This document shows positions 39,349 through 50,976 of a stretch of 64,000 nt of DNA, piece after piece. The notes beneath the pieces were generated by a model that was given only the letters and a program-made list of their open reading frames with translations, searched no databases and was not told the origin of the DNA. Both the position numbers and the translations under genes were made by a program. Origin of the DNA: Raoultibacter phocaeensis (lineage in GTDB: Bacteria > Actinomycetota > Coriobacteriia > Coriobacteriales > Eggerthellaceae); the NCBI RefSeq assembly GCF_901411515.1, contig NZ_CABDUX010000001.1:1426001-1490000 (forward strand), in the 5' to 3' direction. Numbering within the stretch: the first letter of the stretch is position 1; every line of letters begins with the position of its first letter.

Positions 39349-39632
39349 ACCGGTAGGAGCTACAGCGAGGGTCCCTGGTTCTTTTCGGCGGCATTTCGAC
39401 GATTTGTCCTGAAAGATGCAGGCGCAAGAGGCGCATGGGGCTGCGCCCGTGGCGACGCATCTGGCGGACCTGCGCACGCGCCTCGCATCCCCGAAGCGTC
39501 GGTGCGTCCCTTGCGCTCGCATCGTTGTGCGCACGAAGTGTTAGCACCCTGACCGCCAAATTCGGTTCCGACAATATGCGGTGGCGGGTCGTATCTGTGG
39601 TAGGGTGTTTTTTGTCAGAAGGGAGACAACCT

Positions 39633-40949
39633 ATGAAACGACGCCTAATCGCGCTCGGCGCGATTGCATGCGTGGCGAGCGCCGTGCTGCTCGCCGCGTG
39701 CTCGAATGCGGAAGCACCGTCTCAAGGAGGCGCGCAACCCGCCGGCTCGGCTGATGCGTACGCGGTGGCGCTGCCTGCTTTTCCCGCAGAATCCTCAGAA
39801 GACGATCCCGACGCCTGGATGAAAACGCTCGACGAGAACCCGCTCGATCCCGCCTTCATCGAATCGCTTTCCGGGTTCTCGTACAAAACCGCTGCGGCGG
39901 TACTCGCCGATGCGGATGAGAATAGCACGTATTCGCCCATCAGCCTCTACTATGCTCTCGCGCTTGCCACGCAGGGCGCAGCCGGACAAACGGCCGACGA
40001 GATGAACGCCGTGCTCGGAGCGCCCGATCCTGCAGCGGTACCACGCGAGGCGGGCAATCTCTATCGCGTCCTGTACGGCGATCCGTTCTCGAAGATCGAT
40101 TTGGCGAACTCCATCTGGATGCGCGAGGGCGATGAATTCAAGCAGGACTTCATTGATACGGCCACGCAGCAATTCTATGCAACGCCGTTTTCGGTGCAGT
40201 TCGGCACCCCCGAAGCCGATCAGGCTATTGCCGATTGGATTGCGGCCAACACCAACGATACGATCGAGCCTCAGGTTCAAACGCGCGAAGACCAGCTCAT
40301 GTCGATCATCAACACGGTGTATTTCAAGGGTTCGTGGTCCGACCAGTTCGATGCTTCATCGACTAAGGAAGACGTTTTCCATGCAGCTGGGGGTGACACG
40401 GGGGCCGAGTTCATGACGCAACGGCTCGACAAGCCGCGCGAGTACGTGCAAACCGATCGCTACACGCGTGCGAGCCTTGATTTCGTCGGCGGAGCGCGCA
40501 TGACGTTCGTGCTTCCTGCCGAGGAAACGGATCCGGCCGACATCCTTTCCAACGAAGCGCTTCTCGAAGAGGCGTTCACGAAGGATGCCGAGGATATCGG
40601 CTACATCACCTACACCGTTCCCAAGGCAACGTTCGATACCTCGTTCGACCTGATTCCGCCCCTCGAGTCGCTCGGCATGAAAACCCCGTTCTCAGACACG
40701 GCTGACTTCTCGAACCTGACCGAGGTGCCGGCTTTCATTTCCTACATCAAGCAGGAGAGCTACATCATGTGGGATGAAAACGGGGCAGAGGCGAGCGCGT
40801 ATACCGACATAGGTATATCCGAGATGTCGGCGGCACCCGACAGCTTGAAGGAAATCGAGTTCACACTCGACCGACCGTTCCTGTTCGAGATCACCTCATC
40901 GCAGGGTGTACCGCTCTTCATCGGCGTGTGCGAGAATCCCGCGGTGTAA
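39633..40949 (+). CDS. Lipoprotein serpin (serine protease inhibitor)
   Basis: A 438-residue protein. The ATG at 39633 follows GGGAGAC; signal LIALGAIACVASAVLLAAC ends in a lipobox, so it is anchored outside the cell. The serpin fold shows SPISLYYALALATQGA, NTVYFKGSW, and the C-terminal DRPFLFEI. The reactive-centre loop has the inhibitory hinge ENGAEASAYT (382-391). Counting from Glu382 as P17 puts Met398 at P1 and Ser399 at P1', the same bond as human alpha-1-antitrypsin. It likely traps elastase-like proteases at the cell surface. Tyr at P9 is unusual. Confidence 0.9.
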   Translation: MKRRLIALGAIACVASAVLLAACSNAEAPSQGGAQPAGSADAYAVALPAFPAESSEDDPDAWMKTLDENPLDPAFIESLSGFSYKTAAAVLADADENSTYSPISLYYALALATQGAAGQTADEMNAVLGAPDPAAVPREAGNLYRVLYGDPFSKIDLANSIWMREGDEFKQDFIDTATQQFYATPFSVQFGTPEADQAIADWIAANTNDTIEPQVQTREDQLMSIINTVYFKGSWSDQFDASSTKEDVFHAAGGDTGAEFMTQRLDKPREYVQTDRYTRASLDFVGGARMTFVLPAEETDPADILSNEALLEEAFTKDAEDIGYITYTVPKATFDTSFDLIPPLESLGMKTPFSDTADFSNLTEVPAFISYIKQESYIMWDENGAEASAYTDIGISEMSAAPDSLKEIEFTLDRPFLFEITSSQGVPLFIGVCENPAV

Positions 40950-41168: not shown

Positions 41169-41193
41169 AAGCAGCCCCAAAGCGGGGCTGCTT
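41169..41193 (-). terminator. Hairpin ending the tRNA-Leu transcript
   Basis: AAGCAGCCCC and GGGGCTGCTT pair around five bases. On the minus strand the stem is followed by TTTCATT. It may also work on the plus strand (GCGTTTT). Confidence 0.65.
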
Positions 41194-41260: not shown

Positions 41261-41344
41261 TGGTGCCCGAGGCGAGAGTCGAACTCGCACGTCTTTCGAC
41301 AACGGTTTTTGAGACCGCCGCGTCTGCCATTCCGCCACTCGGGC
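41261..41344 (-). tRNA. tRNA-Leu (anticodon CAA)
   Basis: On the minus strand the acceptor stem GCCCGAG pairs with CTCGGGC, and ACCA is encoded. The anticodon loop CTCAAAA gives CAA. A long variable arm (GTCGAAAGAC) and the T-arm GCGAG-TTCGACT-CTCGC complete a class II leucine tRNA of 84 nt. Confidence 0.95.
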
Positions 41345-41447: not shown

Positions 41448-42851
41448 ATGGAGCATGAAGAGCTGAACGCGAAGATCGATGCGTACATCGACGAGGTGTG
41501 GGAGCAGGTCGTCGAAGATATTGACACGCTTGTGCGCATACCGAGCACCGAAGACCTCGACCATGCCGCCCCGGGAGCCCCGTATGGCGAAGGCCCCGCC
41601 GAGGCGCTCAAAGCCGGAGTGGCTCTTGCCGAGAAGCTCGGATACGATGCAACCAACATGGACGGCCATATTGCGTTCGCCGATCTTCCCGGGAAAAGCG
41701 ACACGCAGATCGGCATCATCGGCCATCTCGACGTGGTGCCTGCCGGGTCCGGTTGGAACTTCGAGCCGTTCCAGGTCACGCGTAAAGACGGCTACCTCAT
41801 CGGCCGCGGCGTGCTCGACGATAAAGGTCCGAGCGTCGTGGCGATGTACGCCATGCATTTCTTCCCGCAGCACAACATCGAGCTTCCCTACACGATCCGC
41901 ATGATCATGGGCGCGAATGAGGAGAGCGGCATGCGCGACGTGGCGTACTACCGCGAGCATGTTGCCGACCCCGCGTTCATCTTCACGCCCGATGCCGATT
42001 TCCCCGTCTGCTACGGCGAAAAGGGCGGATTCGATGGCCGCTTCGAAAGCGTGCCGATGGGTGGAGACGCCATGATCGTGGATTTCGGCGGCGGCAATGC
42101 AACGAACGCGGTGCCTGCGGAAGCCTACGCCATCGTGAAGGCGGATCCCTCGACGCTCGCCGACACCGACCGCATTACCGTGTCGGATGTGAACGGAAAC
42201 GCGCGCCTCGACGCGAAAGGTATCGGCGGCCATGCTTCTAAGCCCGAAGGAACGATCAATGCGATCGGGCTCATCGTTGACTACCTGCTCGAAAACAACC
42301 TGTGCTCGGATGAGGAACGGGCGTTTCTCACGCTGCAACACGATCTGCTTTCCGCAAGCGATGGCAGCGGCGTGGGAGTGAAAACCTCCGACGAACACTT
42401 CGGGCCTTTGACCCTCATCGGCGGCACGGTGGAAAAAGACGGCGATCGGATCGTTCAGACGATCGACATCCGCTATCCCACGTCGATTACTGCTGACGAG
42501 CTCATTGAAAAGCTCGGCGCGCGTGCGAAGAAAATCGGTGCAGAGTTCGACAACACGCTTTTGATGGTGCCGTTTCTGGTTGAACCCGATTCGCCGATGA
42601 TCCAGGCGCTGCTCGATTCGTTCAACGATGCAACGGGCATGCACGAAAAGCCCTTCACGATCGGCGGCGGCACGTATGCACGCGAGTTTACCTCGGGAGC
42701 GAGCTTCGGCCCGAACATGCCATGGCTCGAGCATCCCGATTGGATTGCGGGCGAGCACAGCGCGAACGAGGGCGTGAGCGAGGACATGCTCAAATCGGCG
42801 CTCAAAATATACATTCTCACGATCGATCGGCTCATGAAGATCGATTTCTAG
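41448..42851 (+). CDS. pepV: M20-family dipeptidase, PepV type
   Basis: A 467-residue cytoplasmic zinc peptidase. GIIGHLDVVPAG carries His93 and Asp95, GRGVLDDKGP the bridging Asp, and MGANEESGM the catalytic and ligand Glu pair; the last ligand His is in GEHSANEGVS. The order and the 460-470 length match PepV/Sapep dipeptidases, which cleave dipeptides from imported peptides. ACAGGAGGACGGC precedes the ATG. Confidence 0.93.
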   Translation: MEHEELNAKIDAYIDEVWEQVVEDIDTLVRIPSTEDLDHAAPGAPYGEGPAEALKAGVALAEKLGYDATNMDGHIAFADLPGKSDTQIGIIGHLDVVPAGSGWNFEPFQVTRKDGYLIGRGVLDDKGPSVVAMYAMHFFPQHNIELPYTIRMIMGANEESGMRDVAYYREHVADPAFIFTPDADFPVCYGEKGGFDGRFESVPMGGDAMIVDFGGGNATNAVPAEAYAIVKADPSTLADTDRITVSDVNGNARLDAKGIGGHASKPEGTINAIGLIVDYLLENNLCSDEERAFLTLQHDLLSASDGSGVGVKTSDEHFGPLTLIGGTVEKDGDRIVQTIDIRYPTSITADELIEKLGARAKKIGAEFDNTLLMVPFLVEPDSPMIQALLDSFNDATGMHEKPFTIGGGTYAREFTSGASFGPNMPWLEHPDWIAGEHSANEGVSEDMLKSALKIYILTIDRLMKIDF

Positions 42852-45306: not shown

Positions 45307-47202
45307 TCAGGCTGCTGCGGGAGCGTTTTCGAGGTAGGACTTCATCGAGTACTGCGTGATGTCCGAGCGGTTGATCACGCCGACGATCTGACCGTCTTCG
45401 AGTACAGGCACCTTCTTCAGGTGGTTCTCGCCGAGCACGCGGCACACTTCGGGAAGGTCCGCATGGATGTCCACCCCGATGATGCCTTTCGCGCCGATGT
45501 CTTTCGCCTTCATCTCCATGAGATCGCGCAGCTTGTCGTCGAACTTCTCGCTGTCGCGCCCCATCTGCATGATCATGACCACCGGGTCGACGTACATTGG
45601 GCTTCGTTTGGAGAGGTGGCGCATGATGTCGCCGTCCGACACGAAGCCGACCGCCGTGCCTCCGGCATCGACGAGCGGAGCAGCGCTGATGTGCTTGTCG
45701 ACGAGCAGCTTCATGGCATCGATCACCGTGGCGTCGGAGTCGAGCACGTATACGTCGCGTTTCATGATGCTTTCGAGCACTGTACGGCGTGCGTTGTCGG
45801 TATCGGTCGAGGCTGCCTCGCCGGGCTTGTTCTTCACGAACGCGATGGTGAGTACGAGCCCGATCAGGCACAAAAATCCAGCAACGGCGAATGCCATGTT
45901 GATGCCGAAGATGCTTGCATGGACGGTGTCGAGCGAGCCTGCGCCCGCGTTGGTTGCGATCGTCATGACCGATACGAGGACGGCGGTTCCAAGCGAGCCG
46001 GCAACTTGCCGAAACGTGTTGTTGACCGAGGTGCCGTGGTTGATGAGCGAATTGTCGAGCGCGTTCATAGCCCACGTGGTGATGGGCATGTTCACAAGCG
46101 CGAGCGCGAACAAGCGCACGGTGTAGAGGATTGTGAGGTACACCACACCCGTGCTGTCGCCGAGAAACGCCATCGCGAACGTGGTGATCGTGAGCAACGA
46201 AAGGCCGACAAGGCTCAGCACGCGCGGACCGTGCTTGTCGAACAGGCGGCCAGCGATGGGTCCCATGGCACCCATGACGATGGCGCCGGGCAAAATGACG
46301 AGGCCCGAAACGGTGGCCGAGTAGCCCATGAGCGATTGCAGGTAGATGGGCAGAAGGATGCCTGCGGCCAGCAACGACGCCTGCACGACCATGCCGATGA
46401 TCGTACCGATGAGGAACTTGCGGTTGGCAAGCACCCGAACCTGCAGCATCGGGTTTTCCATCTTGAGTTGACGACGGAAAAAGAATACGAGCGACACGAT
46501 GCCAACGAGCGTAGCCACAGCCGCTTGGATGCTGATTCCGTACGATCCGATTACGCTGAACCCATACAGCAGACACCCGAAGCCGAGCGACGAAAGGACG
46601 ACCGAAGGCTTGTCGAGCGTGGTCTGCTTGTCGGGGGCGGGAGTGCGCTTGAGCACGAACAGCGAGCAGACGATGACGAGTGCCGAGAGCCCGGCGATGA
46701 TGAAAAACATGTCGTGCCAGCTCGCGTTGTCGATGATCAGGCCTGCAACGGTTGGCCCGATGGCGGGAGCGAATGCGATGACAACGCCGAATATGCCCAT
46801 CGCGCTGCCGCGCTTGTCGATGGGAAAGGTCAGCATGAGCACGGTCATGACCATCGGCATGAGGATGCCTGCACCAGCTGCTTGCAGCAAACGGCCCGCC
46901 AAGAGTATGGGAAACGAAGGCCCCCACCCGGCGAGCAGGCTTCCTGCGGTGAAGATGCCCATCGCGACTACGAACAGGTTGCGTGTGGAGTACCGATCGG
47001 TGAGGTAAGCCGTAATGGGAATCATGATGGCGTTGACGAGCGTGAATCCGGTTGTGAGCCACTGCGCGGTTGCTGCATCGACGTTCATCTCGGTCATGAC
47101 CGAGGGAAGCGCCGGGGTAACAACCGTCTGGTTGAGAACGGTGACAAACGTGCCGAACATCAACACGGCCAACATCATGATCTGCTTGCGACTTAATCCC
47201 AT
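45307..47202 (-). CDS. DHA2-family multidrug transporter fused to CBS domains
   Basis: A 631-residue protein. The ATG at 47202 follows GAAGGAG. Residues 1-485 form a 14-helix MFS exporter of the DHA2 (EmrB-like) type, with TYLTDRYSTRN-type loop (AYLTDRYSTRNLF) and GRLLQAAGAGILMPM. Residues about 500-630 hold a pair of CBS motifs (MKRDVYVLDSDATVIDAM, HISAAPLVDAGG, and a second set ending KKVPVLEDGQIVGVINRSDI). CBS pairs bind adenine nucleotides, so transport may be gated by energy state. The fusion is unusual for DHA2 pumps. Confidence 0.88.
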   Translation of the reverse strand: MGLSRKQIMMLAVLMFGTFVTVLNQTVVTPALPSVMTEMNVDAATAQWLTTGFTLVNAIMIPITAYLTDRYSTRNLFVVAMGIFTAGSLLAGWGPSFPILLAGRLLQAAGAGILMPMVMTVLMLTFPIDKRGSAMGIFGVVIAFAPAIGPTVAGLIIDNASWHDMFFIIAGLSALVIVCSLFVLKRTPAPDKQTTLDKPSVVLSSLGFGCLLYGFSVIGSYGISIQAAVATLVGIVSLVFFFRRQLKMENPMLQVRVLANRKFLIGTIIGMVVQASLLAAGILLPIYLQSLMGYSATVSGLVILPGAIVMGAMGPIAGRLFDKHGPRVLSLVGLSLLTITTFAMAFLGDSTGVVYLTILYTVRLFALALVNMPITTWAMNALDNSLINHGTSVNNTFRQVAGSLGTAVLVSVMTIATNAGAGSLDTVHASIFGINMAFAVAGFLCLIGLVLTIAFVKNKPGEAASTDTDNARRTVLESIMKRDVYVLDSDATVIDAMKLLVDKHISAAPLVDAGGTAVGFVSDGDIMRHLSKRSPMYVDPVVMIMQMGRDSEKFDDKLRDLMEMKAKDIGAKGIIGVDIHADLPEVCRVLGENHLKKVPVLEDGQIVGVINRSDITQYSMKSYLENAPAAA

Positions 47203-47505
47203 ACGTGCTCCTTCGTTTCTGCGCAGCGGTGATGATGTGCCTGTATCCACAGATAGAAAAGGCGCTTGCGCGCCTGGGTTCTGGATCCCCTTGGTATACC
47301 GCTGCCGTTTTCGTGTAACCGCCCAATACTACGCCCCAATTAACGTGAGCGTATGAATTAGATATGGTCGTTTTGGGATCGAAACCAGTTGCACGGCGAT
47401 TAATAACGTTTATCATTAATAACTGAAGTTCTTACCAATCATGATACCCGTAGCAGCCTTCGATCGGCTTTACACAGGGCAGCGTGATGCAAGGAAAGGT
47501 GAGCC
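47203..47505. other. Divergent promoter region with a direct repeat
   Basis: This 303-base stretch lies between the MFS-CBS gene and the FIST kinase. It contains ATTAATAAC twice (47399-47407 and 47415-47423), spaced 16 bases start to start. No gene is evident. Confidence 0.55.
47399..47423. promoter_or_regulatory. Tandem ATTAATAAC repeat
   Basis: Two copies of ATTAATAAC separated by GTTTATC lie 83 bases before the FIST kinase start. This is a possible tandem regulator site. Confidence 0.4.
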
Positions 47506-50500
47506 ATGCAGGTATGTGTTGGCTTTAGCGATGCTCCCGACAGCACCGTAGCGGGAACTGAGGCGGCGCAAGCCGCGCAGTCGAATGCCGTCCGTGACGA
47601 CGCATGCGACATGGTGCTGCTTTTCTGCACCGCATCCCACGACGTTCGGAAGCTGAGGAATGCGGTCGCCGCGATCGTGGGCGAGAAAGTGCCGCTGTAC
47701 GGGGGAGGTGCGGTGGGCGTCATCACCAACGACCGGTTCGGGTATGCGGGCGACCAGGTAGGCATCGCCTGCATCTGGCTTGAGGGAGCAACGTGCGATG
47801 CACTGTGCGAGCCTGGACTCGATCAAGGCGAGCGGGCTGTCGGAGCGCGTTTGGGTGCACAGCTCAAGGAATCGGGCGTTAGGCCCGATGATTCGGTTCT
47901 GCTGTTCTATGATGCAATCGACGATTCCGACCCTCGCATGAAGTTGTTCATGGCCACATGGCTCCTCGAAGGCATGAAGGAGGAACTCGGCTTCCTGCCG
48001 AACCTCGCGGGTGCCGGAATGCAAGGGGACCACGTATGCAGTCCGGTCATACAATTCGTAGGGAACGATCTAGGTCGCTGCCATGCGCTCGCCCTCTCGT
48101 TTTCCGACGATATTCGCATCGATACCGCCATCATGCACGGGTGCCGGCCCGCATCGGGATGCTACACCGTCACAAAAGCCGACGGTCCGACGATCCTCGA
48201 GATAAACGGCGTTGCGGCGCTCGACTTCATGGACGGGTTGCTGGGCCCGGAGCTTGTTCCCGACCAGTATCCGTTCTTTCTGTTGTTCGGCGTCAACCAT
48301 GGGTCGAGTTGGATCGACTACGGTGAGGACGACTACGCAAGCAGGATGTGCTTCGGCGTCGATTACGAGCGGCGCGGCATCGTTATGTTCGAGCCCGATA
48401 TGGTGCCTGGTACGAAGTTCCAGATCATGTACCGCTCGCTCGATCTCGGTTATATGGAGCCGAAGATCGAGACGCTCTTCAGCGGTTTAGACGATCGCGA
48501 ACCGGTGTTCGCGCTGTATATCGACTGCGCTGGCCGCTGTGCGGGTTACGGCGGTATCGATAGGGAAGACGCCCTGGTGGTGCAGCGGGTGGTGGCCGAC
48601 CGCGTTCCGTTGCTCGGCATGTACGCGGGTGTCGAGGTGGCGCCCCTCGGCGGAGAGCCGCGCGGTCTCGATTGGACGGGCGTGTTCTGCCTGTTCTCCG
48701 TGAGCTCTGCGCGAGGGGGCGGGCGAAAGCGCAGTGTGCGCCGCGTGCCCATGCTCGAGGGTGACGGTTTCCGCACGCACGGTCCCGAAGGCGACGTATC
48801 AGGTGATGCGATGAGGGCTTTGTGCGAGCAAAGCGCCGCAAAAGCGCTCGCGCTCGACGCTCAGTCGATCGTGGCGCGCTACGAACTCGAACGGAAGCGC
48901 CGCGGGTTTCAGCTCATGTCCGATCTGATGGGGTTACTGCTCGAACGCGACGATGCGCAGGATGTGATCACCTCGGCGGCGCAGCGCATCAATGCAACGC
49001 TCAACATGCAGCGCACGGTTGTTCTTGCCCCTGTTTTAGATGGCCGGTTCGTACCTGTGGTGTTGCAGGGCTATCCCGAGGACGAGCGGAAAGCCGTCGC
49101 GTCAGAAAAGCTTGCGCTGCCGGCTCCTATGACCGATATCGGTCGTACCGTGATCGTCAATGCAAAATCCGATGCGGCATGCTTCGACGAGGTGCGCAGA
49201 GCCCTGTCCCTTCCGTATTTCGTATCGCTGCCTGTGGTGCAGCGCGGCGAGCTCGCCTATGTGCTCGTTTCGGGGCGTATCGTCGAACAGCCGCCGTTCC
49301 TTTCTCCCCTAGACGAAGGCGATGCAGAAACGATGCAGGCCATCGCCGCCCTCATGTCGTCGGTTCTGTTGCGCAAGAGCTTGGAGGAAGCCGAAGAGCG
49401 GGCGCTTGTCATGATGGATGCAACGCCTTTATGCGCAACGTTTTGGAACGAGGAGCCCCAAGCCGTCGATTGCAACGCGGAGGCCGTCACGTTGTTCGGT
49501 CTCACATGCAAGCAGGAGTACCTTGCGCGGTTCGACGAGCTTTCGCCCGAGTACCAGCCCAACGGCGAGCGGTCAATCGACGCTTCGAAGCGGATGATAC
49601 GCAGGGCGTTTACGGAGGGCCGCTGCGTCTTCGAGTGGCTTCACCGAAAACCGAACGGGGAGCTGGTTCCTGCGGAGATCACGCTTGTGCGCGTGCGGTA
49701 CAAGAACGCGAACGTCGTCATCGGTTACACGCGCGACCTGCGGGAAATCAAGGCGAAGATGGCCGAAATCGAGTGCACGCAAAACGAGCTGCGCGAAGCG
49801 AAGGATAAAGCCGAGGAGAACTCGAAGGCGAAAACGAGTTTTTTGGCGAACATGTCGCACGAGATACGCACGCCGATGAACGCGATCATCGGCATGACCG
49901 AGATAGCGAAATCGAGTAAAGACGAAGCAAGCACCCGGCATTGCCTCGACACGATAGCCGATGCCTCGAACCACTTGCTCGGTGTCATAAACGACATCCT
50001 CGACATGTCCAAGATCGATTCGGGCAAATTCACACTCACTCCTTCCGATTTCACGATCGAGCACCTTATCGGCAGGGCGCTCGGCGTGATCACCTTCAAA
50101 GTGCACGAACGCCGCCAAAAGCTCACGGTTGAGGTCGACTCGGCGGTGCCCGTAGCCGTGGTTGCCGACGAACAGCGTTTAGCGCAGGTGATCACGAACC
50201 TGCTTTCGAACGCGGTGAAGTTCACGCCGGAAGAGGGGCACATATCCCTTTCCCTGCATCTGGTTGAAGAGGACTGCGATTCGTGTACGCTGGGGTTCAG
50301 CGTTCGTGATACGGGCATCGGCATTTCTCCCGAACAGCAGACGGTGCTGTTCGAATCGTTCGAGCAGGCCGATGCGAGCATATCGCGACGTTTCGGCGGC
50401 ACGGGGCTCGGACTCGCCATTTCGAAGGACATCGTCGAGATGATGGATGGACACATCTGGGTCGACTCGGTTCTCGGCGAGGGATCTAATTTCCAGTTCG

Positions 50501-50976
50501 TTGTGCACGTGGGCAAGGGATCGGCAAAGCCCACCGGTGCAATCGCTGCGATGGCAGACGATGCTCCGAGCCACGACGTGTTGCGCGACGGCGCCTTCGC
50601 GGGCAAGCGCGTGCTGCTTGTGGAGGATATCGCCGTCAACCGCGAGATCGTCATCACGCTGCTTTCCGATACGTCGGTAGCGATCGATAGTGCAGAAAAC
50701 GGCAAAGTAGCGCTCGAGCTGTTCACGCGCGATCAAGGTCGCTACGATGCGATCCTCATGGACATCCATATGCCCGAAATGGACGGCTACGAGGCCGCTA
50801 AAGCGATCAGGGCGCTTGGCACGCCCGAAGCCAAGGCGGTTCCCATCATCGCCATGACGGCCAACGTATTCAGAGAAGACATAGAACGATGCCTCGCGGC
50901 TGGAATGGATGACCATCTGGGCAAGCCGATCGACATCGACGATTTGTCGGCCAAAATGAGAAAGTACTTGCGATGA
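47506..50976 (+). CDS. FIST-domain hybrid histidine kinase with GAF, PAS and receiver
   Basis: An 1,156-residue cytoplasmic protein with no membrane helix. Residues about 1-390 form FIST_N and FIST_C sensor domains (PLYGGGAVGV, LLGMYAGVEVAP), thought to bind amino acids or small ligands. Then a GAF-like region (about 465-630), PAS (about 640-750), HisKA with His785 in SHEIRTPMNAIIG, HATPase with DTGIGIS and GGTGLGLAIS, and a receiver with Asp1086 in ILMDIHMPEMDG. GGAAAGG lies before the start. No cognate regulator is adjacent. Confidence 0.92.
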   Translation: MQVCVGFSDAPDSTVAGTEAAQAAQSNAVRDDACDMVLLFCTASHDVRKLRNAVAAIVGEKVPLYGGGAVGVITNDRFGYAGDQVGIACIWLEGATCDALCEPGLDQGERAVGARLGAQLKESGVRPDDSVLLFYDAIDDSDPRMKLFMATWLLEGMKEELGFLPNLAGAGMQGDHVCSPVIQFVGNDLGRCHALALSFSDDIRIDTAIMHGCRPASGCYTVTKADGPTILEINGVAALDFMDGLLGPELVPDQYPFFLLFGVNHGSSWIDYGEDDYASRMCFGVDYERRGIVMFEPDMVPGTKFQIMYRSLDLGYMEPKIETLFSGLDDREPVFALYIDCAGRCAGYGGIDREDALVVQRVVADRVPLLGMYAGVEVAPLGGEPRGLDWTGVFCLFSVSSARGGGRKRSVRRVPMLEGDGFRTHGPEGDVSGDAMRALCEQSAAKALALDAQSIVARYELERKRRGFQLMSDLMGLLLERDDAQDVITSAAQRINATLNMQRTVVLAPVLDGRFVPVVLQGYPEDERKAVASEKLALPAPMTDIGRTVIVNAKSDAACFDEVRRALSLPYFVSLPVVQRGELAYVLVSGRIVEQPPFLSPLDEGDAETMQAIAALMSSVLLRKSLEEAEERALVMMDATPLCATFWNEEPQAVDCNAEAVTLFGLTCKQEYLARFDELSPEYQPNGERSIDASKRMIRRAFTEGRCVFEWLHRKPNGELVPAEITLVRVRYKNANVVIGYTRDLREIKAKMAEIECTQNELREAKDKAEENSKAKTSFLANMSHEIRTPMNAIIGMTEIAKSSKDEASTRHCLDTIADASNHLLGVINDILDMSKIDSGKFTLTPSDFTIEHLIGRALGVITFKVHERRQKLTVEVDSAVPVAVVADEQRLAQVITNLLSNAVKFTPEEGHISLSLHLVEEDCDSCTLGFSVRDTGIGISPEQQTVLFESFEQADASISRRFGGTGLGLAISKDIVEMMDGHIWVDSVLGEGSNFQFVVHVGKGSAKPTGAIAAMADDAPSHDVLRDGAFAGKRVLLVEDIAVNREIVITLLSDTSVAIDSAENGKVALELFTRDQGRYDAILMDIHMPEMDGYEAAKAIRALGTPEAKAVPIIAMTANVFREDIERCLAAGMDDHLGKPIDIDDLSAKMRKYLR

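Follow-up and report, generated by a model that had tools for sequence, protein, structure and literature searches.

INTRODUCTION

The serpin gene of this locus raises the question of whether a gut actinobacterium carries an inhibitory serpin at its membrane, and which protease such a serpin would meet there. The window, meaning the whole stretch of 64,000 nucleotides of Raoultibacter phocaeensis DNA that was analysed, had been read in an original prediction as encoding a surface lipoprotein serpin that may act as an elastase trap. The proposed host, a gut actinobacterium, agrees with the description of the genus Raoultibacter from human stool (PMC6562231, for which an expression of concern is on record) and with a serpin in the same-genus R. 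timonensis. Here we examine the identity, location, loop, relatives and neighbours of this serpin, and weigh what it may inhibit.

RESULTS

Identity of the gene

Translation of the window gives a complete 438-aa serpin at 39633-40949 on the forward strand, and the own-genome search found it to be the only serpin in the 3.86-Mb, two-contig genome. Pfam PF00079 matches from position 5 to 370 of 370 in the profile with 226.6 bits (cut-off 27). The AlphaFold2 (AF2) model, built from a 38-sequence alignment, has a serpin fold with mean pLDDT of 87.4 and pTM of 0.86, and Z scores between the model and serpin structures are 38-45. The claim of an intact serpin with full fold motifs is thus confirmed, with a full-length domain far beyond chance. 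A search of the NCBIfam profiles returned no named family for the protein. In phmmer comparisons with solved structures, miropin ranked first (E 2.5e-38), followed by conserpin and tengpin, and alpha-1-antitrypsin scored about 1e-25 to 1e-27. By phmmer ranking, miropin and tengpin are the top-scoring natural bacterial structures; PMC8233489 places both with the siropins in prokaryotic serpin Group T. The product is a further bacterial serpin, an ordinary kind of protein, whose clade carries a distinctive hinge signature.

Table 1. Features of the serpin locus, in window coordinates
Feature	Position	Strand	Basis
Ribosome-binding site AGAAGGGAG	39617..39625	+	Sequence; 7 bases before ATG at 39633
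Serpin gene, 438 aa	39633..40949	+	Pfam PF00079, E 7.4e-67; AF2 serpin fold
Predicted lipoprotein signal peptide, residues 1-22; lipobox LAA before Cys23	39633..39698	+	Sequence; lipobox clade-wide
Cys23 and variable linker to serpin domain, residues 23-62	39699..39818	+	Low pLDDT at mature start
Hinge P17-P9, E382-Y390 (ENGAEASAY)	40776..40802	+	Sequence; consensus ExGTEAAAA (PMC8233489)
Reactive-centre loop P8-P5', T391-D403	40803..40841	+	Count from E382; alignment; no amino acid change against R. timonensis
Counted P1-P1', Met398-Ser399	40824-40829	+	Count from E382
Terminator-like hairpin 3' of serpin gene	41169..41193	+	Pattern scan; 4 in region against 2.0 expected
tRNA-Leu (CAA), between serpin and M20 genes	41261..41344	-	ARAGORN; Rfam RF00005
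M20-family dipeptidase, syntenic neighbour in several genera	41448..42851	+	Pfam PF01546; synteny

Signal peptide and probable location

The predicted lipobox signal is borne out by L20-A21-A22-C23 in the translation, preceded by KRR and a hydrophobic stretch, by a lipobox in 21/21 members of one Eggerthellaceae clade, and by genes for Lgt and Lsp in the same genome (PF01790 and PF01252 matches). Hence all the elements of a lipoprotein, a lipobox with its Cys and the Lgt and Lsp genes, are present in the serpin and its genome. The signal peptide and the linker (residues 23-62) form the least conserved segment in the alignment of relatives.

The serpin is probably tethered to the membrane. Eggerthellaceae are regarded as single-membrane bacteria, and in such a presumed monoderm host the lipid anchor would keep the serpin at the membrane, beneath the wall. 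Where the original prediction spoke of surface display, the anchor would rather put it at the outer face of the membrane, under the wall.

Hinge and counted reactive bond

With E382 as P17, the count of 17 residues makes M398 P1 and S399 P1', exactly as had been claimed, and this counted pair matches the Met-Ser of human alpha-1-antitrypsin, to which it had been likened. The loop from P17 (E382 through Y390 to M398) reads ENGAEASAYTDIGISEM before the counted bond and SAAPD after it. Residues 382-407 align with serpin loops, and in the model strand 5A is followed by the loop.

The consensus of the inhibitory hinge is ExGTEAAAA for P17-P9 (PMC8233489). Five of the eight specified positions are exact in ENGAEASAY, P11 Ser is a small-for-small replacement, and P14 Ala and P9 Tyr deviate. 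Among the 14 nearest sequences, Glu at P17, Gly at P15, Ala at P12, Ala at P10 and Thr at P8 are invariant. The hinge, proposed to be inhibitory, keeps inhibitory residues at P17, P15, P12, P10 and P8, and departs from them at P14 and P9.

At P1, the same 14 sequences have 12 Met and 2 Thr, at P1' they have 12 Ser and 2 Ala, and P4 is always Ile. For a wider set of 83 serpins, almost all from actinobacteria, counting gives a P1 of Met in 20, Thr in 20, Ser in 14, Gly in 14, Ala in 9, Arg in 1 and Lys in none, some of these counts being off because loop lengths vary or the pattern slipped. Within the clade with an aromatic residue at P9 (21 members), it is Met or Thr. The near-absence of basic P1 residues in the 83 serpins makes an elastase- or subtilisin-like target a reasonable reading, and a Met or Thr P1 would be compatible with elastase inhibition. 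Met398-Ser399 is a plausible prediction for the working bait bond.

Predicted structure

Directly after strand 5A (model residues 347-359), the model has a strand at residues 362-373, corresponding to protein residues 384-395 (P15-P4), and model residues 375-385 (protein 397-407) have pLDDT <50. Most of the top structural matches are serpins in the cleaved or latent state, cleaved antithrombin reaching a Z of 45.6 and native miropin one of 38.6; they include an antithrombin variant that carries Ala at P14. We read the P15-P4 strand as a loop-inserted state, which is a prediction and not proof of an S-to-R transition. In loop-inserted serpins, odd-numbered P positions point outward. The inserted strand of the model suggests that Tyr390 would be accommodated there.

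Relatives and inheritance

The R. timonensis serpin is 80% identical to that of the window, and in a scan of named genomes the serpin matches were R. timonensis and one Clostridiales MAG. Actinobacterial serpins have so far been known mainly from Streptomycetaceae, Bifidobacteriaceae and Pseudonocardiaceae (PMC6718151). Against this picture, serpins occur in 38/138 Eggerthellaceae and 108/398 Coriobacteriia of the genomes sampled, and the gene is patchy but not rare in these groups. Copies with an in-frame stop were also seen in other Eggerthellaceae (G049:C24:14134-15252, G058:C1:1088464-1089261 and G096:C1:2614933-2615733); these are apparently decaying genes, or assembly errors.

P9 in the 83 serpins is Ala in 42, Tyr in 20, Val in 16 and Phe in 1. 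With the loop columns left out, a quick tree search separates the 21 rows with an aromatic P9 from all others by a single branch (SH-aLRT 99). A divergent long-branch row (L039), missed by the pattern, also reads AYT. At P14 this clade has Ala or Val, and most other serpins aligned have Thr. On this tree, aromatic P9 is a single-origin marker of an Eggerthellaceae clade. The original prediction had called both the P9 Tyr and the lipid anchor unusual. However, Tyr or Phe at P9 and the lipobox are found in all 21 members and are thus shared family features, and lipobox-like sequences are, by loose matching, also frequent among the 83 serpins outside this clade.

Selection on the loop

Comparison of the window serpin with that of R. 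timonensis gives a dN of 0.14 and a dS of about 1.0. All 13 changes in the 22 loop codons from P17 to P5' are synonymous, and the two proteins agree without interruption over the 32 residues 372-403. Fully identical 22-residue stretches number 24/354, and since other core stretches are equally frozen, the loop behaves like structural core and is not a strong outlier. Across genera, P8-P1 has no more than average conservation, ranking 200 among 369 windows. An unusually conserved loop was therefore rejected, the loop being average across genera and one among several frozen stretches within the genus. The dN/dS comparison with R. timonensis gives no sign of an arms race on the loop within the genus Raoultibacter.

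Gene neighbourhood

Upstream of the serpin gene lies YaaA, with genes for an ECF sigma factor and an ABC transporter on the other strand, and downstream a tyrosine phosphatase gene follows the M20 dipeptidase. The hairpin behind the serpin gene suggests that the serpin transcript stops short of M20. M20 peptidases are metal-dependent, a class that serpins do not trap. The serpin as operon partner of a protease in Raoultibacter was rejected, because the sole adjoining peptidase is M20, and the hairpin and the tRNA lie between.

R. timonensis and members of two other genera, g22 and g27, share the order serpin-M20-phosphatase. One g37 genome has serpin and M20 near each other with no phosphatase within the stretch read, and in several other genomes these neighbours were absent from the stretch read. 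Recurrence of this order in relatives suggests that the locus is most likely inherited. Recent horizontal transfer was rejected, because the two Raoultibacter proteins group inside the Eggerthellaceae clade and gene order is kept. Two genomes of g32 have an S8 subtilase some 2.5-2.7 kb 3' of the serpin, with the order serpin-catalase-subtilase in the one read fully; in that genus, L049 7445-12799 holds serpin, catalase and a subtilase of 1244 aa, whose C-terminal part has a hydrophobic stretch and a basic tail.

Two further frames were observed in the window. The 647-aa frame at 45307-47250 (minus strand) joins an MFS transporter to two CBS domains at its end, an unusual-looking fusion. The 1156-aa ORF at 47506-50976 (plus strand) reads by eye like a fusion of a FIST/PAS sensor histidine kinase with a response-regulator receiver domain.

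DISCUSSION

Proposed mechanism and possible target

A membrane-anchored inhibitory serpin is the overall explanation that we consider quite likely, with export, lipidation, inhibition, bond, target and benefit as its conditional parts. According to this model, the serpin would be exported, Lgt and Lsp would lipidate Cys23, and a linker of some 40 residues would hold the protein at the outer face of the membrane. An external serine protease, either a host elastase- or chymotrypsin-like enzyme or a subtilisin-like bacterial one, would attack the loop around Ile395-Met398, with Met398-Ser399 as the simplest site. The cut loop would then become a strand of sheet A, leaving the protease caught as a covalent acyl-enzyme complex, so that the envelope proteins of the cell may be protected.

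The inhibitory reading draws on the Pfam match and fold, the hinge residues, the inserted-strand model, the non-basic P1, dN/dS, the clade-wide lipobox and Lgt/Lsp. In addition, characterised gut serpins inhibit neutrophil elastase, as the siropins and the Bifidobacterium longum serpin do (PMC5127057, PMC6779802). Against it may count two hinge positions, P14 with Ala (or Val in certain relatives) in place of the Thr or Ser of most inhibitory serpins and P9 with Tyr in place of their Ala, as well as the no more than average conservation of P8-P1 across genera. The elastase trap is a fair hypothesis. Our literature search found no biochemistry on the aromatic-P9 Eggerthellaceae clade, and nothing relevant on serpins of Eggerthella or Gordonibacter.

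Even if the serpin is inhibitory, the bond may be another than Met398-Ser399, such as Ile395-Ser396 or Ile393-Gly394, or may differ by protease, and we give this variant a serious though slightly smaller chance than its opposite. In bacterial serpins the counted position is a poor predictor of the bond that is cut, because siropins 1 and 2, counted likewise, are cut by human neutrophil elastase (HNE) and proteinase 3 (PR3) at P3-P2 and P6-P5 (PMC5127057), and miropin uses several bonds (PMC8201313). Moreover, P4 Ile is invariant in the 14 nearest sequences, whereas P1 is Met or Thr. However, the retention of P1 Met and of P1' Ser in 12/14, with replacement only by Thr and by Ala, fits a selected P1-P1' pair. 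A non-inhibitory serpin, in which Ala or Val at P14 and Tyr at P9 would mark a clade without fast loop insertion and with a binding or chaperone role, appears very unlikely to us. The hinge composition did change once, with a single origin in the clade, but the inhibitory residues are retained at P17, P15, P12, P10 and P8, P14-P9 contain no Pro and a single charged residue (P13 Glu, which is the consensus residue), the odd-numbered positions would face outward, and the model inserts the loop.

The target may also be one of the bacterium's own envelope proteases, either a subtilase (S8) or HtrA, with the serpin guarding against self-damage. Two S8 subtilases and one HtrA-type protease are encoded in the genome, the sister genus g32 has a large exported S8 subtilase two genes 3' of the serpin, past the catalase, and the loop is frozen within the genus Raoultibacter. 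This explanation is nevertheless unlikely, as S8 occurs in 25/38 serpin-bearing and 59/100 serpin-less Eggerthellaceae (Fisher p 0.56), 6/21 clade members carry the serpin but gave no match to S8, and the only peptidase gene adjoining the Raoultibacter serpin encodes a metallopeptidase. An endogenous S8 subtilase as obligatory target was rejected, since the presence of a serpin is not associated with that of S8 over the 138 Eggerthellaceae. The missing association and the six clade genomes without S8 make an outside protease, host or microbial, the better bet.

Returning to the membrane-anchored inhibitory serpin, we add a doubtful extension. The aromatic-P9, lipid-anchored Eggerthellaceae serpins with Met or Thr at P1 may form a vertically inherited, membrane-tethered subfamily, in which the loop is kept constant for one specific, conserved gut protease instead of being diversified as in host-pathogen conflict, and P9 Tyr may be tuned for trapping.

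This serpin leaves the understanding of the serpin mechanism unchanged. The anchored, loop-conserved branch in gut commensals offers a ready set of proteins for assay. Elastase-blocking gut serpins are under study for inflammatory bowel disease, and this makes the Eggerthellaceae branch worth assaying.

Comparison with known systems

Miropin of Tannerella forsythia (PDB 5ncs/5nct/5ncu), the top match among solved structures, is 28-30% identical to the window serpin in structural alignment. Further likenesses are its probable exposure on the cell surface (PMC4604654) and the conservation of its loop across strains (PMC7296668). Miropin differs in its Lys-containing loop with trypsin and plasmin activity, in its Gram-negative host, and in its own P14 Thr and P9 Val.

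The siropins of Eubacterium siraeum and the serpins of Bifidobacterium longum and B. breve, compared by description, are likewise serpin-family proteins of gut bacteria. They differ in that siropin cut bonds depart from the counted P1, and the available descriptions of the siropins and the B. longum serpin (PMC5127057, PMC6779802) mention no lipid anchor.

Human alpha-1-antitrypsin (SERPINA1) shares the serpin fold and Met-Ser at the counted P1-P1', which by itself would not be evidence of the same target. In contrast to the window serpin, to which it is about 24-26% identical, it is a secreted plasma protein, and its P1' lies six residues closer to the conserved PF motif.
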